In this document: piece after piece, positions 3,899 to 37,560 of the stretch
How the letters are laid out: the number at the start of each line of letters is the position of its first letter
How positions within the stretch are numbered: position 1 is the stretch's first letter
DNA from: a virus
DNA length: 64,000 nt
Reading direction: 5' to 3' (one strand)
Virus record (IMG/VR): IMGVR_UViG_3300036985_007703
Location: 104,533 to 168,532 of that record
The notes under the pieces: generated by a model
Seen by the model: the letters and a program-made list of their open reading frames with translations, nothing else
Database searches by the model: none
What the model was told of the DNA's origin: nothing
Translations under genes and position numbers: made by a program

Positions 3899-4417
3899 TC
3901 AGACCGTCTCACCGTTGATCTTCAGCTCGACCGACTCGACCGCGAGGCCGAACTCGGCGATCGACACGTCGCCGCTCGTCGCGTCCATGTCCGCCGCGAG
4001 CTTCACGCGGATCGGCACGCACTCCCGGCAGATGTACTCGCGCGTCGCGCCGCTGGCCGCCACGAGGTTGGCGCCGAAGGCGTCCTCGCGGCTGAAGTGC
4101 AGGATCTGGAGGTCGGCGCGGTACTCGCCGCCCTTCGCCGCGCTCTGGCCCCAGCGCCAGAAGTCGCTATCCAGGGCCGTGATGCCGCGGGTCAGGGTGA
4201 CCTCGCTGAACGTCGGGATGCCGCTGAGCTTCTTCGTGAAGATCGTCGTGCCCTCACGGTACTCCACGGCGTCCATCGTCAGCTCGGGGATGCTCAGCGT
4301 GTTGAAGCCCGCCTGGACCTTGAACACGTCCCCCTGCGACCCGATGGGCGAGCCGTCGATGACCCGCGCGTGGTAGCGGAAATTCTGAAAGAAGTCGGTC
4401 GTGATTGCCCGTGCCAT
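3899..4417 (-). CDS. Tail tube protein (gp19-like)
   Basis: 172 residues, close to the size of T4 gp19 (163). It carries the family signature: VEYREGTTIFTKKLSGIP, then FSEVTLTRGITALDSDFWRW (about residues 70-90), then a C-terminal strand region AEFGLAVESVELKING. Hexamer rings of this protein stack inside the sheath to form the DNA channel. It lies downstream of the sheath gene, as in many contractile phages. The ATG at 4417 has GGAG five bases upstream. Tube assignment is firm; the choice between this and the neighbour as the main tube rests on the stronger match here. Confidence 0.88.
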   Translation of the reverse strand: MARAITTDFFQNFRYHARVIDGSPIGSQGDVFKVQAGFNTLSIPELTMDAVEYREGTTIFTKKLSGIPTFSEVTLTRGITALDSDFWRWGQSAAKGGEYRADLQILHFSREDAFGANLVAASGATREYICRECVPIRVKLAADMDATSGDVSIAEFGLAVESVELKINGETV

Positions 4418-4448
4418 ATCTGCTCCTTTTGTCCTTCTAGCCCGGCCC

Positions 4449-4904
4449 TCAGCCCGGCAGCGTTTCCGTCCCGATGACGCCCGGCAGCGTCTGCGGCCAG
4501 CCCCTGAACGCGCACACCACCACGCGCCCCAGCGCGGTGCAGGCGAGCGAACTCTCCACCTTGAGCTTCCACCCCGGCGGCACGAGGACCCCGTTGCTGC
4601 CGAAGCGCAAGGAGCCCGTCCCCGCCGCGAGGCTCTCGACCTTGTAGACGTTGTTGGTGCCGTCCACGAGGCTCACCGTGATCGTCGGGGATCCCCCCGT
4701 GGGGAGGTTCCACGCCACGTACTCCACCCGCATGCCGACGCGCGCGTGGGCCGGGAAGAGCCCACCCTTGGTCCCCGCCGTGAAGACCTGGATGCGCCCG
4801 CGCTCGATCGTCTCCTCCGAGCTGACGCCATCCGTGGCCGTCCCATCGATGTGGCCCGAGGTCGCCACCTCATGGATTTTCATCACCGCAAATACATCCG
4901 TCAT
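4449..4904 (-). CDS. Putative virion protein between sheath and tube
   Basis: 151 residues, mostly predicted beta strands, with GTKGGLFPAHARVGMRVEYV and GWKLKVESSLACTALGRVVV segments. A strong GGAGGCGGCG precedes the ATG. It is located between the sheath and tube genes, so a structural role such as a tail-surface or decoration protein is likely. No family is recognised. Confidence 0.75.
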   Translation of the reverse strand: MTDVFAVMKIHEVATSGHIDGTATDGVSSEETIERGRIQVFTAGTKGGLFPAHARVGMRVEYVAWNLPTGGSPTITVSLVDGTNNVYKVESLAAGTGSLRFGSNGVLVPPGWKLKVESSLACTALGRVVVCAFRGWPQTLPGVIGTETLPG

Positions 4905-4945
4905 CGCCGCCTCCTCTGGCTGCGCCTACCGCCCGCCGCGCTCGC

Positions 4946-7495
4946 TCACACCAGGGCCTTCTGCGAGAAACGGAACACTATGAACTCCGCGGGCTTGTTC
5001 GACGCGAGGCCCACGTCAACGAACATGAGGCCCTGGTCCACGGTGTTCTGCGGGTTGTTGGTCTTGTCGCAGATCACGAAGAAGGCCTCCTTGGGCGAGG
5101 TCCCCGCGAAGTACCCTTGCTGGAAGAGGCCGAGCAGGAACGTGTCGAGCTGGAGCTTCACGCGGCCCCACAACTGGGGCCCATTGTTCTCGAAGACATG
5201 CACGTGAGTCGCGTTGAACACGCTCTTCTCCACGAACTGGAACAAGCGCGTCATCTGGATGTAAGGCCAATCGCCGCCCGCGATGTCGAGGGTCTTGGCG
5301 CCCCAGATCACGCGGCCCGTCTGCGGCCAGCTCACGAGGCAGTTGAGCTTGTCCTGGTAGCAGATGCCCACCTGCAGCGGGGTGAGGTCGCGCTCCAGGC
5401 CGATCTGCCAGCTCAGCGCGCCGTCGCCCGTGCCGGCCGGCGCCTTGCCGACGTTCTTGTTGATGTCGGTCGTCGCGTAGCGTCCCGCCACGTGGCCGCC
5501 GCAGGGCAGGTTGATGGCCGCCTGGGTCACGGGGTCGATCACGCGCACGTGCGGGTAGTACACCGCGGCGTACTTCGTGAAGCGGCCCAGGGTGAACTTC
5601 TTCCAGTTCACGGCCTCTTGCGGTTCCAGGCCCTCCGGCGCGGTGAAGATCGCGAACTTGTCCTTGCGGAGCATGGCGTAGTCGATGACGTCCGTGCAGA
5701 CCAGCTCGTCGGTTTGGAAGTCGGCGACCACGACGCTCATCATCGCGTCCACTTGGTCGAGGGCGTAGAGGCCCTTGTAGTCCGCGACGAGCGTGGCGCC
5801 CGTCACGTCGCTGCGGTCGAGGGCCGAGCCGTCGGCGCCGTCGAAGAACTGCACGACCACGGCCGCGCCGGGCTGCGTGTAGTAGGTCGCGGTCTGCGGC
5901 TTCGTGATCGGGGCCTGGGCGGGGTAGGTGTCCGCCGTGGGGCCCGCGGCCGGGTTGCCCGCGATCTTCCACGTCAGCGTGCAGGCGCCCGTGGTGTAGT
6001 CCACGCGGTTCGTGCCGTTGCTGTTGAGGGCGTAGGCGCCGCAGGGGCGCTGCAGGCTGAGGTTGCCGTTGCCGTCGTCGATCACGACGGGCCCGTAGTA
6101 AAGCTGCGTGATGCGCACCGCCGCCACCCCGTCGAACGTGTCGGCGAGCCCGCTCACATCGAGGGCCAGGGCCCCTGTCAGGTAGTTCACGGTGCCCACG
6201 GTGGTGCCCGTGCAGTTGCCGGCCACGACCAGCTTGAGGTTGCCCGCGCCGTCGTCGCCCGCGATCTTGGCGCCGTCCCCGTCCAGGGTAAAGCTCACGA
6301 GCACGCCCGCGGCCACCGAGGTCTTCGCGGTCGAGGTGTTGGGGTGGAGCTGGGTCGGCGTCGCCGGGGTCCATGCCCACGTGGTGTCCGTGACGAGCGG
6401 GATCGTCGTGATGATCGGCAGCGGGCTGTGCTTGAAGCCGAACTGCATCGCCAGGGTGGTCTTCGCCACCGATGTGCCGATCTGGTACACGAACTCCTTG
6501 TTGGCGCCGTTGTAGGCCGGGGAGTTGCTGACGTCCCTGGACGCGTAGTGCGTGCCCGCCAGCTCGGGGGGCAGCTCGCGGTTGAAGGCCACGACCGCGG
6601 CGATGTCGGAACCCGCGTTGAGGTCGTTCAGCACCGTGGCGATGAACTGCGGGCTGCTCGCGTCATCGAGCACCACGCCCTGATAGGTCTCGAACGTGTT
6701 CCAGCCCTGGATTTTCTCGATGTACTCATCGATGGTCACGTCGAAGCGCGTGTAGCTCGCCGTGGCGGCCACGTAGTAGTCGGGGGTCCCGCTGACCACG
6801 GCGCGGTAGTTGTTGCCCGCGAGGCCCGGCCACTTCAGGTCGAAGCGGAAGGTCTCGTAGACCCAGCTTGCCGTGAGGAACTGGCCCGCCGGGAAGTCGG
6901 CCGGCGTGCCGAAGGTGAGGTGCACCTCGCCGGTCTCGTAGTCGATCGAGCCCGTGGTGTCCACGCCATCGTCGAACCCGCCCGTGCCCGTGACGGTGAA
7001 GGTCCCATCGCCGTTGTCGGTGAAGGTGCCGATCTTCGGCACGACCTCGCCATCCGTCGTCGTCAGCACCAAGGAGGCGGCCAGCGTGTAGGGGCTGGGG
7101 CCGTAGCTGCCGTGCGGGACCACCGGGGTCTTGGGCAGGCTGAAGCTGTAGCTCGCCGCGCTGTCGCCCTCCACCACGTCCATGCCCTGGACGTCTTTGG
7201 TGAGGAAGCAGCGCGCCTTCACGGCGTCGACCTCGTGGACCACGCGCACGAAGTACAAAGTGGTGCCGCCGTTCTGGAAGAACGCGTAGGCCTCGGTCGG
7301 GGCCAGCGAGGCCGCGGTGAAGTCGCCGAACTTGGCCGTGAACTCCTGGAAGGAGGTCACGATAGTCGGCTTGTTCGTCGGGCCTTTCTTGGAGAACCCG
7401 ATCAGGCCGAGGTTGCTGGTGCTCACGCCCTGGATGGGGCCCGGCCCGCTGCTGCGCTCCTCGATGTACACGCCCGGATAGTTACGCTCTGGCAT
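4946..7495 (-). CDS. Contractile tail sheath protein
   Basis: 849 residues. The N-terminus PGVYIEERSSGPGPIQGVSTS and the following GLIGFSKKGPTN match the start of phage sheath proteins (gp18 family). The C-terminus GLMFVDVGLASNKPAEFIVF is the conserved sheath beta-strand/arm that links neighbouring subunits. The length exceeds T4 gp18 (659), and the extra sequence lies in the middle (roughly residues 190-560, rich in Gly, Thr and Asp), suggesting an extra surface domain. It assembles around the tail tube and contracts on infection. The gene is followed by the tube genes. The ATG at 7495 has GGGAGGATC upstream. Confidence 0.93.
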   Translation of the reverse strand: MPERNYPGVYIEERSSGPGPIQGVSTSNLGLIGFSKKGPTNKPTIVTSFQEFTAKFGDFTAASLAPTEAYAFFQNGGTTLYFVRVVHEVDAVKARCFLTKDVQGMDVVEGDSAASYSFSLPKTPVVPHGSYGPSPYTLAASLVLTTTDGEVVPKIGTFTDNGDGTFTVTGTGGFDDGVDTTGSIDYETGEVHLTFGTPADFPAGQFLTASWVYETFRFDLKWPGLAGNNYRAVVSGTPDYYVAATASYTRFDVTIDEYIEKIQGWNTFETYQGVVLDDASSPQFIATVLNDLNAGSDIAAVVAFNRELPPELAGTHYASRDVSNSPAYNGANKEFVYQIGTSVAKTTLAMQFGFKHSPLPIITTIPLVTDTTWAWTPATPTQLHPNTSTAKTSVAAGVLVSFTLDGDGAKIAGDDGAGNLKLVVAGNCTGTTVGTVNYLTGALALDVSGLADTFDGVAAVRITQLYYGPVVIDDGNGNLSLQRPCGAYALNSNGTNRVDYTTGACTLTWKIAGNPAAGPTADTYPAQAPITKPQTATYYTQPGAAVVVQFFDGADGSALDRSDVTGATLVADYKGLYALDQVDAMMSVVVADFQTDELVCTDVIDYAMLRKDKFAIFTAPEGLEPQEAVNWKKFTLGRFTKYAAVYYPHVRVIDPVTQAAINLPCGGHVAGRYATTDINKNVGKAPAGTGDGALSWQIGLERDLTPLQVGICYQDKLNCLVSWPQTGRVIWGAKTLDIAGGDWPYIQMTRLFQFVEKSVFNATHVHVFENNGPQLWGRVKLQLDTFLLGLFQQGYFAGTSPKEAFFVICDKTNNPQNTVDQGLMFVDVGLASNKPAEFIVFRFSQKALV

Positions 7496-29781: not shown

Positions 29782-32736
29782 CTAACCCATCAGGAAGGGC
29801 AACATGGGGACCTCGGCCTCGCCCTCGGGGCCCGGCTGCCCGGTCACCCACGCGAAATCCTCGGCCTCGGCGCGCCCCTCGCCTGGTTGTAGCACCCCGA
29901 GGGGCACCCTCGGAACTTTTTTCAGGAGCCCCGCCACGACGCCCGCCACGGCGTCCGCGCAGTCCTTGGAATTGTGCACAAACACGCCCGCAGACAACGC
30001 AAAATTGTTCCACACGTCGACCTCCAGGTCGTACACCGGCACAGGATCGGCCAACTGCACGGGGATGACAGCACGCACCTTGTGGTTCAAACCGTGGCGC
30101 GCCAGCAGGTCACTCCATGAGGAAAACCCATGTTCGCGCAGCACCCGCATCACGGTATTGCGACCACATCCGATAGCACGGGACGCGGCATTGGCATTGT
30201 CTACAGATGGATTACGGGCGGCCTCCAACACAACACCAAGATCCACGTCAGATCGGAACGCGCCACTCTTCCGAGCACGGGCACGTCGCTGCTCAGGCGT
30301 CATAGAAGCTATCATGCGGCTCATCGCCTCGGCATGGATGGCTCGCCCACGCGCACTCAAATTAAACGCCTGCAGACCATCGCGCACATGCTGCTCATAC
30401 ACAGCATCCTCTAGGTGCCGTTGGATCGTGTGCTCTCGCGAGTGGTCCTCTCGTCGAATGATCTCAATGTTGTCTGGCCTATTGTCGGTCTTTACCCCGT
30501 TGCGATGATGCACGATCTCATCCTCGCACACAGGACGCTGGAAGTGCTCAGCCACAAGATAGTGGGTGAGTGTCCTGTGACCGTGCGCATCGGTCAGGCG
30601 CTCATACCCACCATTGACAGGCCAAACCTGACTGATAGGCATCAGACGATCTACCCCAGGCACAAGATCGCTTGCTGGCTTGTAAGATCCATCCCGAAGC
30701 ATCCACGGATGCTCTGGCGTGCAACGGACGACGGCCCCGCTGTCAAGCACAACATCCAATAGGGCACTCGTCGTTTTCGTAAGGCGCCCCCGCGCCAGCC
30801 CCGGCACAATCGTCCCATCATTCCGCGCAGAATAAACCCACACCTCGCGCCCGCATAGCTCCGCTATCGTAGGCCGCGTGCCATCCATCAAAGGAATGCG
30901 CGTCTCCCCCACAAAACATCCCGCCATCGGGTGGTCAATTTTTCCTCGCATACGATCGTGCTCCAGGGCCCGCAGCTCCCCGAGCAGGGGCGCGTGGTCG
31001 TACAGCTCGATGCGCCGCTCGTAGATCGCCGAGCGCAGGGCCTCGTAGGGCACCATCGTGACGTCCACGCTGAGGATCTCCGAGGCCACGCCGCGCCGGC
31101 GCATCGCCTGCAGGGTGTCGGCGCTCTGGTACTGGTCGCACGAGAACCCGATCAGCGAGAACCCGTGCGCCTGGAGGTCGTAGACCACGGCCCGGATGTC
31201 GGCGAGCTGGATCTGCTCCCCCGGCGGGGGCCGCACCTGCAGCACGAGGTCGAGCACGAAGGCCGGGGCGAGGTCCGTGTAGTGATCGCCCTCAGGCGTC
31301 CGCCGCACGACCTCCACCCAGCGCTCGATGTGCCCCATGGCGATCCCCGTGCAGTCCCCCGACAGCGAGGTGTCGATGTGGACGTAGCGGAAGGCCTTGG
31401 GGTTGCGGAGGGGCGTCCAGGCCTCCTCCTCGAACCCGCCCGGCAGGCGCCGCACCGAGGACTTGGCCAGCTGGTGCCAGTGGATCACGAGGGGCTCCCC
31501 GTACTGCCAGGTCTGGCGGTGCGCGGGGTGGCGCCGCGCGGGGTCCACGGCCTCCTGGATCTTCTCCGTGCGCTGGATGAACACGCTGATGGCCGTCGTG
31601 GGGACGCCCGCGATGTCGCGGATCGCATCCTCCAGGTTGGACTCGAAGTCCACGCGGTACTCCTCGGGGACCGCGATCACGCGCGCCTCGTCGGGGAGGG
31701 TCGCGAGGTTCACCTCCTCGCCGGGGGGCAGGATGCGACTGCGCAGGGAGCTTCCCCCGCAGAGCACTTGGAAGGTGCGCCCGCTGAAGCTCCCCGGCGG
31801 CTTGACCTCCCACGTGGCCATCTCCATCGCGTAGATCGAGGGGTCGTGGTGGGCCGCCGCGAGGCGCCGGTCGATGAACGACCCCACCGTGTTTGCGCTC
31901 GACACCATCACGATCATGCCGGGGAGGTCCCCGCTCGCCTGCACGAAGCGCGACTTGATGCGGCGCTCCAGGGAGCGGTACGTGACCTCGGCGTGGTCGT
32001 AGTGCGCGAGGCTCTTCTGCTGGCCGTCCGCCGTGCGGATCTTCTGCTTGGTGGAGCGCACGAAGTTGGTCTCGTCGAGGGCCGCGGCGAAGGCGTTGGT
32101 GCCCATGGAGCGCTCGGCGAGGTAGCTCGCGACGATCATCTGCACGTTGTAGGGGAAGTACGTCGCCTCGGTGTGGACGTCGGGCTTGAAGTGCTCCTGG
32201 AAGTACGGGCTGATCGCGAGCTTGTTGTCGATGGCCGACTTGAGGACCTGGCGCGCAAGGACCAGGTTGCGGCTCACGAGCACGATGCTCATCTCGGAGC
32301 CCGGCGACATGCCGTAGGAGGCCTGCGGGTTCACGAGGCAGCTCAGCTCGTAGAGGAGGCGGCACATGGCGATCGAGAGGGCCGTTGTCTTCCCCCACCC
32401 CGTGCTGCCCCCCAGGATGACCTCGCGGTAGTGCGCGCCCGGCTCGAAGATCTCGATGAGCTTGCGCCGCAGGACCGGGTAGAGCGTCTGGCAGGATTCC
32501 CCCAGGTAGTAGGGATCATCGATAAAGGTCGCCATGTCGACAGGGGCCACGCGGTACCGCTTCGCGTAGCACTCGTTGGCGATCTCGGGGCGCCCCGCCT
32601 GCTCCTCGTACAGGAGGGCCTCGAAGAGGCGCCGCTCGTCGGGGGGCAGCGCGCCCAGGCGCCGCAGGAGGGCGGCCCGGCGCTCGGCCGGCGTGCGGAC
32701 GGTCCGCGTGCGCCCCTCGGGGGTGCGGATGATCAC
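29782..32736 (-). CDS. Terminase large subunit with intein
   Basis: 984 residues; without the 316-residue intein (607-922) it is 668, a normal size. ATPase domain: Walker A GSTGWGKT (110-117), Walker B FAAALDE with D221/E222. RNase H-like nuclease: D455 in HIDTSLSG, D534 in FSCDQ, and the third acidic motif DHPMAG...SKDCADAVAG, which the intein splits just before S923. It packages and cuts DNA at the portal. Splicing restores GSKD. The nuclease cannot be complete until the intein is removed. ATG overlaps the previous stop. Confidence 0.93.
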   Translation of the reverse strand: MIIRTPEGRTRTVRTPAERRAALLRRLGALPPDERRLFEALLYEEQAGRPEIANECYAKRYRVAPVDMATFIDDPYYLGESCQTLYPVLRRKLIEIFEPGAHYREVILGGSTGWGKTTALSIAMCRLLYELSCLVNPQASYGMSPGSEMSIVLVSRNLVLARQVLKSAIDNKLAISPYFQEHFKPDVHTEATYFPYNVQMIVASYLAERSMGTNAFAAALDETNFVRSTKQKIRTADGQQKSLAHYDHAEVTYRSLERRIKSRFVQASGDLPGMIVMVSSANTVGSFIDRRLAAAHHDPSIYAMEMATWEVKPPGSFSGRTFQVLCGGSSLRSRILPPGEEVNLATLPDEARVIAVPEEYRVDFESNLEDAIRDIAGVPTTAISVFIQRTEKIQEAVDPARRHPAHRQTWQYGEPLVIHWHQLAKSSVRRLPGGFEEEAWTPLRNPKAFRYVHIDTSLSGDCTGIAMGHIERWVEVVRRTPEGDHYTDLAPAFVLDLVLQVRPPPGEQIQLADIRAVVYDLQAHGFSLIGFSCDQYQSADTLQAMRRRGVASEILSVDVTMVPYEALRSAIYERRIELYDHAPLLGELRALEHDRMRGKIDHPMAGCFVGETRIPLMDGTRPTIAELCGREVWVYSARNDGTIVPGLARGRLTKTTSALLDVVLDSGAVVRCTPEHPWMLRDGSYKPASDLVPGVDRLMPISQVWPVNGGYERLTDAHGHRTLTHYLVAEHFQRPVCEDEIVHHRNGVKTDNRPDNIEIIRREDHSREHTIQRHLEDAVYEQHVRDGLQAFNLSARGRAIHAEAMSRMIASMTPEQRRARARKSGAFRSDVDLGVVLEAARNPSVDNANAASRAIGCGRNTVMRVLREHGFSSWSDLLARHGLNHKVRAVIPVQLADPVPVYDLEVDVWNNFALSAGVFVHNSKDCADAVAGVVAGLLKKVPRVPLGVLQPGEGRAEAEDFAWVTGQPGPEGEAEVPMLPFLMG
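29971..30918 (-). mobile_element. Intein with HNH homing endonuclease in the terminase
   Basis: Residues 607-922 of the terminase frame. Block A starts C607-FVGETRIPLMDG, block B is TPEHPW (673-678), block F is VYDLEVDVWNNFAL (901-914), block G is GVFVHN with the C-terminal N922, then Ser+1 of the extein. An HNH-type nuclease (HYLVAEHFQRP, then VHHRNGVKTDNRPDNIEII, 726-760) and a helix-turn-helix DNA-binding part (about 845-885) lie between B and F. Codons are less GC-rich than the flanking extein. All residues needed for splicing are present, so it should be active. Confidence 0.93.
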
Positions 32737-33578: not shown

Positions 33579-34133
33579 CTACTCGCCACGCCCCCCCGCG
33601 ATCCCGAGCTTCTCCCGGATCGCCGCGAGGTCCGAGCGCAGCCCGCTGAGCTGCTCCCGCAGCCCATCCAACTGCGGCTGGATGCGGTCGCCCGCCAGCC
33701 GCAGGGCCGTCACGTGCTCCTGCATCACCCGCGCATCCGAGGCCATCGCGCTCACGCGATCCGACACGAGGCGCACCTGGTCTTCCAGGGCGTCTTGCCG
33801 CGCCACCGTCGCCTGCAAGTTGAAATACAGGGTCCCTGCCATGAAGACCAAGGGCACGATCCAGATAATGATCCGCACCCAGGTGTCCCGCGTGAGCCCC
33901 CCCGGCGTCGCGGGCGGGGGGGGCGGCGGGGGGGCATAGCCCTGCACCGGCCCATAGTACGCGGGCCCCTCGGGCAGCGTGAACTGCCCCGTCACGTCCT
34001 CGTAGGCCCCCACCTGGCCGGGCCGCCCCGCGGGGTGATCGGGCCCACCCGAGTTGGCAGGGCCCGGCCCGTAGCCGCCCGGACTTGGGGGCGGGGCCAT
34101 GTGCGGGGGACGGGGGTTGCGGCGGTCCATCAT
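33579..34133 (-). CDS. Membrane-anchored Pro-rich coiled-coil protein
   Basis: 184 residues. A long Pro/Gly/Tyr-rich N-terminus (about 1-85), one membrane helix (WVRIIIWIVPLVFMAGTLYF, 91-110), then a coiled coil with heptads (QDALEDQVRLVSDRVSAMA ... LDGLREQLSGLRSDLAAIRE). Topology suggests an envelope protein, perhaps related to lysis or host takeover. An ATG at 34130 is an alternative start. It is the first gene after the terminator at 34202-34268. The frame remains open upstream through the terminator, so a longer form cannot be excluded. Confidence 0.7.
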   Translation of the reverse strand: MMDRRNPRPPHMAPPPSPGGYGPGPANSGGPDHPAGRPGQVGAYEDVTGQFTLPEGPAYYGPVQGYAPPPPPPPATPGGLTRDTWVRIIIWIVPLVFMAGTLYFNLQATVARQDALEDQVRLVSDRVSAMASDARVMQEHVTALRLAGDRIQPQLDGLREQLSGLRSDLAAIREKLGIAGGRGE

Positions 34134-34139
34134 GCCGCC

Positions 34140-34168
34140 AGCGTACCGAACGCCCTGCACATCTGCAA
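34140..34168 (-). promoter_or_regulatory. Weak candidate promoter for the late operon
   Basis: On the minus strand TTGCAG, 17 bases, TACGCT. It would start transcription almost at the ATG at 34133, leaving little or no leader. It is only of interest because a strong terminator lies just upstream, so some source of late transcripts is needed. Confidence 0.28.
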
Positions 34169-34201: not shown

Positions 34202-34268
34202 AAAAAAAAGGGGCCGGCGACAAGCTAGGACCAGGGGGGGTGGTCGCGTCGCTCAAGTCGCCGGCCCC
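34202..34268 (-). terminator. Strong intrinsic terminator
   Basis: On the transcribed strand GGGGCCGGCGAC (34268-34257) and GTCGCCGGCCCC (34221-34210) form a 12-bp stem with a 35-base loop, followed by eight U (34209-34202). It is the only classical hairpin-plus-U-run in the window. It ends the transcript of the gene at 34337-35365 and lies before the late genes. Confidence 0.88.
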
Positions 34269-34296
34269 ACAAGCCATAATGGGAGCCAACGCCATC

Positions 34297-34326
34297 ACCG
34301 TAGCGGGCCACCCCCGCTGCTGTCAA
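34297..34326 (-). promoter_or_regulatory. Promoter directly in front of the terminator
   Basis: On the minus strand a perfect TTGACA (34326-34321), an 18-base spacer and TACGGT (34302-34297). It begins just after the stop of the gene 34337-35365. Transcripts would start near 34290 and meet the strong terminator after about 90 bases. Confidence 0.65.
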
Positions 34327-34336
34327 GGGAGAAGCG

Positions 34337-35365
34337 TTAGGGCTTCGCGTTGCCGATGTCGGCCAGGGTGGTCTCGCCGAAGAGAATCTCCGGGGCGCCC
34401 CCCGCGAAGGCCACGATGCGGACCTGCGTGAGGTCCTGCAGGGCCTTGAGGTGCCCCGCCAGATCCAGCGTGGGATCGGGCAGCGCCGCGGCCGGGGCCT
34501 CCGGGGCCTCCGCGCCGGCCTGCTCCGCCGCCTCCAGCAGGGCCCCGCCGTAGAGCACCTTGCCATCCTTGGGGTCGACCGCCACGATGCGCCAGCCCGT
34601 CGCGTGCTCCACCTGCGCGAGGTACTCCGCGGGCTCGTTGCGGTTCATGTTCGTCGCCAGGAACTCCGTGCAGATCATCGCCAGGGCGTGCGGCTCGCTC
34701 TCCGAGGCCGCCATGTCGCACGCCTTCTTGATCGCCCGCTCCACCGTGTCGACTTGCGACCGCATGAGGTTCCGGCTCCACTTGACGGGCTTCTGCTGGA
34801 TCTGGAGCTTCTCCTCGTCCTCGTCCGCCGCCGCGCCAGTCGGGAGGCCGTTGAGGCGCTCTTGCTCCGCGTCGACCTCACCCCGCACGAGCTTCTGCAC
34901 GTCGCGCGTGCTCAGGCCCTCCACGCGGCCCAGCCAGTGCTCCGCGTTCTCCGCCGTGACCACCGGCGCGAGGTCGCGCGCCTTCGAGGCCCCCAGGCGG
35001 TCGATGCGCTCCTGCAAGGGCGCCGGGAGGCTGCGCCGCCACGCCCAGATCTGCACGAGGTACTGGGCCTTGCGCAGCTCGAAGTCGACCTCCGATTCCA
35101 CGTACTCCTTCCACGAGGCGAACCCCCACGTCTGGTACAGCACCTTGTCGTACACGTGCCAGAGGGCCTCGCTCAGCTTCCAATAGTTGCTCTCGACGTT
35201 CGCCCGCAGGCGCTTCACGTCCTTGCGCACCTTCTCGGGCGCCCACTCGGCGAGGCGATCCTCGATCCCCACCTCCGCCGCGGGTTCCCCCACGCACGCC
35301 AGCTCCGTGTGCAGCCGCTCCGTCAAGACCTCCGGCACCGCCAACTCATCCTGCTTCTTCGCCAT
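34337..35365 (-). CDS. Phage protein with conserved W-G-F-x-S-W-x-x-Y-V motif, possible DNA-binding
   Basis: 342 residues. The segment NYWKLSEALWHVYDKVLYQTWGFASWKEYVESEVDFELRKAQYLVQIW (about 60-107) resembles a family widespread in phages, in which helices recall DUF3102/ParB-type DNA-binding proteins; KARDLAPVVTAENAEHWLGRV follows. The C-terminal third is Pro/Ala-rich. ATG at 35365. Function unknown; a regulator or partition-like DNA-binding role is possible. Placed at the end of the early operon, before the late promoter/terminator. Confidence 0.75.
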   Translation of the reverse strand: MAKKQDELAVPEVLTERLHTELACVGEPAAEVGIEDRLAEWAPEKVRKDVKRLRANVESNYWKLSEALWHVYDKVLYQTWGFASWKEYVESEVDFELRKAQYLVQIWAWRRSLPAPLQERIDRLGASKARDLAPVVTAENAEHWLGRVEGLSTRDVQKLVRGEVDAEQERLNGLPTGAAADEDEEKLQIQQKPVKWSRNLMRSQVDTVERAIKKACDMAASESEPHALAMICTEFLATNMNRNEPAEYLAQVEHATGWRIVAVDPKDGKVLYGGALLEAAEQAGAEAPEAPAAALPDPTLDLAGHLKALQDLTQVRIVAFAGGAPEILFGETTLADIGNAKP

Positions 35366-35420: not shown

Positions 35421-35969
35421 CTAGAACAGCTTCTCTTGCTTCCACTCAAACGATCCTACGTCGACCGCCCCGCCCGTCAACCTGTGAAGGTGGAGGGCCG
35501 CCACCGCCCAGGCGTCCGCCTGATTGTGGTCCGCCACGGGCACCCCCAGCTTTATCACGTGGGGCAGGATCTTGTCCTTCTTGAGGTTCCCCTTGCCGAA
35601 GATCTCCTTGCGGATCTGGCTCACGATGTAGAGCGCGGGCTCCACCCGGCACGCCAGCCACAGTTGCGTCTTCACGACCCCATGCAGCTCCCCGAGGTCG
35701 TTCTGCGCCCCACGCGCCCCCCAGGCGAACTGCTCGATGGCCACCCCGCAGGGGGCCGGTGCCGCCCGGTAGGCCCGCACCACCGCCGTCGCGATGTCGA
35801 GCATGCGCTCCACACGCTCCCGCGTCGTGGCCGTGCGCTTCAGCGCGTACCCCACGGTCTCCGCCGCCCAGACAGAGCCCGTGGCCCCGTCAAGCGTTAC
35901 AAGTCCGGCCCCCCGATCCGAGAGATCGAGGCCGAGCACGCTCCCGAGATCTATTTTATGCTCCTCCAC
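35421..35969 (-). CDS. RuvC-like Holliday junction resolvase
   Basis: 182 residues. RNase H fold with the four-acid set of RuvC: D15 in VLGLDLSDRGAG, E79 in GVAIEQFA, and D147/D152 in VADHNQADAWA, with KKDKI before them. It resolves branched DNA before packaging. The start GTG at 35969 is chosen because GGAGGAA is 6 bases upstream; a longer frame to 36017 is open but lacks such a site. A partner of the nucleases and ATPase upstream. Confidence 0.85.
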   Translation of the reverse strand: MEEHKIDLGSVLGLDLSDRGAGLVTLDGATGSVWAAETVGYALKRTATTRERVERMLDIATAVVRAYRAAPAPCGVAIEQFAWGARGAQNDLGELHGVVKTQLWLACRVEPALYIVSQIRKEIFGKGNLKKDKILPHVIKLGVPVADHNQADAWAVAALHLHRLTGGAVDVGSFEWKQEKLF

Positions 35970-36026
35970 GAATACTTCCTCCGGTGGATTTCGCCCAGAC
36001 CGCCCCCTGGGGACCACTTTCCATGT

Positions 36027-37037
36027 TCATGGCGATGGTTTCTGCATAGATCCATCACCCGCGCACGCCTTGGCGATGTCCCGCGCGAAGCACGCCGCGC
36101 GCTGCGGGCACAACTTGGCCTTCCGATCCCCCTTGTAGCGGCACCCCGGCACGCAGCGCGCGGGCCACGGGGGGCGCTCCCCCGCGCATCCCACCGCCCA
36201 CCAGGCCTCATGCCCGGCCAGAGCGGCCCGCACATCCGCCACCGTCGCGTGCACCTCGGCCACCACGTTAGGGTCCGGGCGCACGAGGTGCTCCGCGAGG
36301 GCCCCCACCGCTGCGTCGGCCTCCTTGCGCACGTAGATGAGGCGCCCGCGCGCGAGCCCCGCCCAGTGCATGTACATCTGCACCTGCAGCGTGTGCTCGC
36401 GGAACGGGGCCCCGCCCACGGCCGGGTCGATCATGGCGAAGGCGCGGGGGCTCACCGTCTTCAGCTCCACAACCTCTAGGGCCCCATCCGCCCACCGCAG
36501 GACCCCATCGCAGTGCCCCGTAAGGCCGTGGACGCGGTCCTGGAAGGCCAGCTCCACGTAGCGCCACCCCTCCCCCGCCGGCCGGGGGATCCAGCCATGG
36601 GCTAGGGCGGGCACCGGGGCCCTAGCGCCCACCACCCGCTCGACCGCGCGGTATTCTGGGCCCCCCTTGACGATGGGCACGTCCCGCTCCCACCACCCCA
36701 ACAGGGTGACCCCCGGCAGCAGGGGCAGCAGCTCCTCCTGCCACGCGCGGTGGTAGGCCGTGCCCACCGCCGTCGCCCACACGTCCTTGGCGTCGTCCTC
36801 GCGGACCACCATGGGGGGCTCATCGGGCAGCAACACGGCGTGCGCCCGCCGCGCCCCCTCGGCCGCGATCACGGCCCCGCGCGGGCAGAGCCGCCCCAGG
36901 CCGCTCGCGCGGAAGGGCCCGTCGCTCGTGGGGATGGGGTGCCGCTCGCGCCGCACGACCCCCGCGAGGGCGCGCTGCACGGCGTCATCGGGGGTCGTGG
37001 GGCGGGCCCACGCGTGGTCGGTGAAGGTCGCGAGCAT
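36027..37037 (-). CDS. RecB/Cas4-like PD-(D/E)XK nuclease with Fe-S cluster
   Basis: 336 residues. Nuclease motifs: H96 in GTAYH, D177 in GLTGHCDGVL, E191 and K193 in VVELKT, and Q218/Q220 in HTLQVQMYMH. One Cys (C51, GRLCPRG) precedes the core and a cluster follows it (C295, C299, C310, C316), the arrangement of the 4Fe-4S cluster in Cas4, AddB and related exonucleases. Likely trims DNA ends in recombination. ATG at 37037 with GGGAGG upstream. No helicase domain. Residues 15-24 (TPDDAVQ) share a 23-base DNA stretch with the gene at 730-1185. Confidence 0.87.
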   Translation of the reverse strand: MLATFTDHAWARPTTPDDAVQRALAGVVRRERHPIPTSDGPFRASGLGRLCPRGAVIAAEGARRAHAVLLPDEPPMVVREDDAKDVWATAVGTAYHRAWQEELLPLLPGVTLLGWWERDVPIVKGGPEYRAVERVVGARAPVPALAHGWIPRPAGEGWRYVELAFQDRVHGLTGHCDGVLRWADGALEVVELKTVSPRAFAMIDPAVGGAPFREHTLQVQMYMHWAGLARGRLIYVRKEADAAVGALAEHLVRPDPNVVAEVHATVADVRAALAGHEAWWAVGCAGERPPWPARCVPGCRYKGDRKAKLCPQRAACFARDIAKACAGDGSMQKPSP

Positions 37038-37426: not shown

Positions 37427-37530
37427 TGGGGGCTCCTGCGGGGGGAGGGGATCTGGGGGCGGCGCGGTCCTGGGCTCCCCCCGTGGGGCCGCGGGCCCGC
37501 CCGCCGCGCGCCATGCGCGGGGGCACGGGG

Positions 37531-37560
37531 ACCATAGCGCGCCCGCGGGGGATTTGTCAA
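37531..37560 (-). promoter_or_regulatory. Sigma70-type promoter
   Basis: On the minus strand a perfect TTGACA (37560-37555), an 18-base spacer and TATGGT (37536-37531) in the 130-base gap upstream of the ATG at 37426. The -35 box overlaps the previous stop codon. Expected start near 37524, so transcripts would carry the small protein, the RecB-like nuclease, the resolvase and the gene ending at 34337. Confidence 0.72.

Follow-up and report, generated by a model that had tools for sequence, protein, structure and literature searches.

A predicted small RNA with a C-rich hairpin loop upstream of the packaging operon in a group of GC-rich T4-like phages

A promoter that is directly followed by a strong intrinsic terminator, with the packaging and head genes beyond it, raises the question of whether the two signals form a late switch operated by read-through, as in phage lambda, or delimit a short RNA. 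The original prediction for this locus offered both readings. The 64-kb window analyzed here (GC 70%) lies at the end of a virus contig of 168.5 kb, and nearly all of its genes are carried on the minus strand. Its head genes are T4-like, with a gp20 portal, an S77 protease and a gp23 capsid. Terminase, portal, protease and capsid genes all lie downstream of the promoter and terminator; terminase, portal and capsid had been placed there before, and the S77 protease and the gp23 identity of the capsid are now added. On the upstream side, the locus is bound by the last gene of an operon with exonuclease and RuvC genes (34337..35365, minus strand; phrog_17202, unknown function), and on the downstream side by the first gene of the next operon, which encodes a proline-rich protein with a single transmembrane (TM) segment (33579..34133, minus strand). 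The ATG of the latter was fixed by the conserved N-termini of its homologues.

Little is known about the small RNAs of virulent T4-like phages, and the majority of those described were found in transcriptomes of phages in culture. From the comparisons below, we consider it probable that the locus is an independent small-RNA gene of this phage group, about 90 nt long, in which the terminator is built into a functional hairpin.

Promoter, terminator and fold of the predicted RNA

The -35 hexamer, TTGACA (34321..34326, minus strand), is identical in three related viral contigs, L004, L005 and L007, and the -10 hexamer, TACGGT (34297..34302, minus strand), reads TAGGGT in L007. The spacer is 18 nt, so the coordinates 34326-34297 of the original prediction are exact. 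Only 3 of the 6 bases of TACGGT agree with TATAAT, which makes it a weak -10 and explains why a standard scan missed this promoter; its conservation makes it credible. Between the window and L005, both hexamers are identical (6/6 each) and the spacer is identical at 11 of 18 positions. A fourth relative, L008, has TTGACA at the corresponding place.

Promoters of this type are rare. The pattern TTGACA-N16-19-TANNNT occurs at 2 sites in the 64-kb window, against 0.06 expected from shuffles, and TTGACA-N16-19-TAYGGT at 2 sites in the whole 168.5-kb contig (0 in the reversed control). Whole-record pattern searches for TTGACA-N-TANGGT-type sites returned exactly two per contig for the window's contig, L004 and L005, one at the small RNA and the other before the exonuclease/RuvC operon. 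In the window's contig, this only other TTGACA-N18-TAYGGT promoter lies at 37531..37560 (minus strand), ahead of the operon formed by gene 37052, the exonuclease and RuvC genes and gene 34337.

A sigma70-type promoter of this kind, presumably read by host RNA polymerase, would start an RNA near 34290, and a single hairpin followed by a U-tract would end it near 34202. The predicted RNA (34202..34290, minus strand, with the start placed from the -10) is about 89 nt by coordinates, in keeping with the approximately 90 bases proposed earlier, and folds at -41.7 kcal/mol with a z-score of -4.4 (0 of 200 shuffles). It is present in a single copy in the contig. The hairpin occupies 34210..34268 (minus strand), as supported by a covariance model and by pair counts, and is completed to an intrinsic terminator by a tract of eight T (34202..34209, minus strand). 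When hairpins followed by T-runs were ranked, this one was the strongest in the window (-35.1, compared to -30.4 for the runner-up), confirming the rank given before to the terminator at 34268-34202. Standard scanning missed it because the loop region is too large.

Four sequences, those of the window, L004, L005 and L007, were folded independently and gave a shared fold. An outer stem of 12-13 pairs is followed by a UU bulge and a 4-bp helix GAGY/GCUY (GAGC/GCUU in the window), above which lies an asymmetric internal loop with GACGC or GAC opposite CUA or CA. The top of the apex is a 5-bp helix closed by a 7-nt loop, YCCCCCC, and a U-tract follows the hairpin. The loop of the window is CCCCCCC (34234..34240, minus strand), a candidate pairing seed. 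This conserved apical structure was not part of the original prediction, and neither was a second promoter, described below.

Conservation and covariation of the hairpin

Relatives were gathered in searches that started from the upstream gene and from the terminase. In L004, L005 and L007, whose upstream proteins are 98, 83 and 68% identical to that of the window, the same promoter type and hairpin are found between the homologue of gene 34337 and the membrane-protein gene. Comparing the window with L005, the apical core is identical at 32 of 35 positions and the stretch after the terminator at 18 of 33. A covariance model was built from three sequences, leaving out L007, the most distant one, and this model recovered L007 with E=2.9e-8. 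Since MAFFT misaligned L007, it was placed with the three-sequence model. In the model-fitted alignment, which leans to the model although L007 was not used in building it, every one of the 84 base-pair cells is canonical, and changes on both sides are seen at nine pairs among four sequences that, two of them being nearly identical, amount to effectively three lineages. Aligning by hand likewise left no non-canonical pair. None of 500 shuffles reached this level, and slid controls paired at 33-46%. The stem varies by compensatory pairs and by insertions and deletions, unlike coding sequence. As expected of a stand-alone small RNA, the locus has its own conserved promoter and terminator and no conserved reading frame. 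The conservation and structure of the promoter, the hairpin and the second promoter are established computationally.

A palindrome near terminase genes could also be a DNA element with dyad symmetry (a site where packaging starts, for example, or a protein operator) that acts without being transcribed. We regard this as extremely improbable. Six of the 84 pair cells are G-U, which would be A-C mismatches on the opposite strand, and their retention is more readily explained by an RNA read from the minus strand than by a palindrome acting as DNA; moreover, the bulges are one-sided, and the promoter before the hairpin and the T8 tract after it lie on the same strand.

The same comparison bears on a simpler explanation, in which the hairpin serves only to terminate the exonuclease/RuvC operon and the promoter goes unused or is fortuitous. 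A terminator does not require its own promoter, and distant relatives have a plain terminator directly 3' of the homologue of gene 34337. In the window and its close relatives, however, the two promoter hexamers have been retained although the spacer between them has changed, and the bulges, internal loop and C loop of the apex are conserved beyond what termination needs, which makes the simpler explanation unlikely. Rather, we conclude that the apex (UU bulge, GAGY/GCUY, internal loop, helix and YCCCCCC) is kept by selection. The plain terminators of the distant relatives suggest that the small-RNA gene of this clade arose from an ancestral operon terminator. The terminator of the putative small-RNA gene would still insulate the upstream exonuclease/RuvC operon from the operon downstream. 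Six distant relatives (L006, L020, L021, L022, L026 and L039) have additional genes that separate the terminator from the terminase block, judged by eye to be a short cysteine-rich ORF and a ParB-like gene; in the window, their place is taken by the small RNA and the membrane protein.

The distribution of the RNA is narrow. In L008, whose neighbouring gene product is 46% identical, the hairpin is not the same one and its U-tract is weak, which indicates that only a narrow clade carries the RNA. Widening the search by terminase gave 59 loci, with the RNA in the three known relatives only; widening by the TM protein gave no further phages, and the terminase had no match in the bacterial genomes searched. 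A looser pattern returned five more viral contigs, and a genome scan two bacterial contigs, none of them a convincing match to the model. By model and pattern searches, the small RNA was therefore not found outside the window phage, L004, L005 and L007.

A second promoter and the late-switch reading

The packaging and head genes could be under a lambda-like switch if transcription from the upstream promoter stopped early at the terminator and later read through under an antiterminator. The order of elements fits: as at lambda pR', a polymerase leaving the promoter would soon meet a terminator, and only then the late genes, here those for packaging and the head. In this phage, however, the late operon appears to have a promoter of its own. 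TTGCAG-N17-TACGCT (34140..34168, minus strand) lies 3' of the terminator, its -10 ending 6 bp before the homology-confirmed ATG of the operon, and is conserved in L004, L005 and L008, with the variant TTGCAA-N17-TAGCAT in L007. A conserved promoter so near a fixed ATG indicates that the packaging operon probably has its own start, and its mRNA is likely leaderless. We infer that the packaging and head genes would be transcribed separately from 34168-34140.

Several other observations weigh against the switch. Neither antiterminator Q (PF03589, PF06530) nor NusG, sigma70 region 2 or RNA-polymerase domains had a match in the 168-kb contig, which is possibly incomplete and might encode an unfamiliar Q-like protein. 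A lambda-type qut site lies partly between the -35 and the -10 (PMC6266700), and in these phages that interval is poorly conserved (11/18, against 6/6 for each hexamer), although such sites can co-diverge. The expected transcription start of L007 lies almost at the base of the hairpin, leaving almost no leader and hence no room for a nut/put-like antitermination site in the RNA. The conserved C loop would also be left unexplained. On this evidence the lambda-type reading was set aside as very unlikely, and pR'/tR'-like control, the first of the two readings originally offered, is not supported. The second, a short abundant RNA, holds as far as a discrete, conserved and structured RNA is predicted from these comparisons. 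The observation behind the original prediction was thus sound, and its interpretation survives in part. A promoter and terminator before late genes do not by themselves imply a Q-type switch.

Some neighbouring genes differ by insertions. The terminase gene (29782-32736) encodes an intein that includes an HNH domain; in L004 and L005 the terminase has additional inserts near residues 116 and 215-229, and the portal genes of L004, L007 and L008 have an insertion at about residues 340-373 that resembles the terminase insert.

Known RNA families and candidate function of the C loop

No Rfam family reached its gathering score in the window. Sub-threshold matches to suhB, fluoride, Xoo2 and others were rejected; they were not common to the homologues. 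For example, suhB/mmgR (RF00519), an alphaproteobacterial sRNA, matched the window weakly (23.3 bits, E=0.0052, against a gathering score of 41), sharing with it a GC-rich terminator hairpin and a CUCCC stretch upstream. It had no match in the RNA region of L005 or L007, so this match does not track the conserved RNA. We conclude that the predicted RNA is new to Rfam, a viral small RNA not listed there. Many described phage sRNAs are still without a known function (PMC12197685). The RNA predicted here resembles stand-alone phage sRNAs in being short and phage-encoded, and differs from them in belonging to uncultured T4-like phages and in having a promoter, structure and synteny conserved across several levels of divergence. 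Comparative sequence alone was thus sufficient to define a promoter, a compensatory structure and a narrow clade for an RNA outside Rfam.

The closest functional parallel is found in actinobacteria, where 6C and B11 are small intergenic RNAs, about 100 nt long, whose hairpin loops contain at least six C (PMC10470900, PMC4046766). In M. abscessus, an mRNA whose 5' UTR contains a six-G tract can be repressed by either of the C-rich loops of B11 (PMC10470900). The phage RNA is likewise small and intergenic, with a hairpin loop of six or seven C. It differs from 6C, which has two stem-loops with about six C in each loop, in having a single C-loop hairpin fused with the terminator, and in being a phage gene; its 5' leader contains no C-loop hairpin and is nearly absent in L007. 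The Rfam 6C model had no match at gathering score in the window, nor any with E up to 10 in the RNA regions of the window, L005 and L007. By analogy, we tentatively propose as the most likely function that the C loop pairs with G-tracts, as RNAs of the 6C/B11 type do. Such tracts would lie in the leaders or around the translation starts of mRNAs from the phage or its host. Like transcription from the promoter and termination at the hairpin, target pairing is inferred.

The hairpin might instead be a protein-binding or structural RNA that does not act by base-pairing, for instance a component of the packaging machine or a decoy bound by an RNA-binding protein of the host. The UU bulge and the asymmetric internal loop are as conserved as the loop itself, and the gene adjoins the packaging genes. 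However, it has no known RNA-binding partner, T4-type packaging is to our knowledge not known to use RNA, and the invariant Cs of the loop fit pairing equally well. We therefore hold a protein-binding or structural role to be somewhat unlikely.

For the tentatively proposed pairing through the C loop, there is one candidate target. The leader of the 37052 operon (37531-37427, minus strand), which starts from the same promoter type, contains a G6 tract (37477..37482, minus strand), G7 in L004 and L005, that can pair with a C6 or C7 tract beside an AGGAG ribosome-binding site. The lengths of the G- and C-tracts match in all three phages. By pairing with the G6-7 tract, which would otherwise pair with the C6-7 tract, the C-loop RNA, made from the same type of promoter, could control the recombination operon. 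Because 46 G6 tracts occur on the coding strand of this genome, this target is only a hypothesis, and we consider such control rather doubtful. If true, phages would have their own counterpart to the riboregulation by 6C/B11. The G7 ribosome-binding site of the exonuclease gene was rejected as a target, its G-tract not being conserved in L004 and L005. The comparison thus supplies a concrete seed, the C6-7 loop, together with a candidate target.

Within the same upstream operon, the gap between the exonuclease and RuvC genes is about 1.3 kb longer in L004 and L005 (about 4014-5400) than in the window (35421-36027). The RuvC start region of these two phages is unlike that of the window and L007, and together these differences look like the gain or loss of a segment. 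Additionally, a repeated palindrome, roughly TGCGCAYGCGYRTGCGCA, was observed just 5' of several start codons in the window (35401, 33566, 20579, 8778 and 56224, minus strand). The copies before genes 34337 and 32733 were also found in L004, L005 and L007, and the palindrome may serve as an operator or fold into a hairpin in the mRNA.
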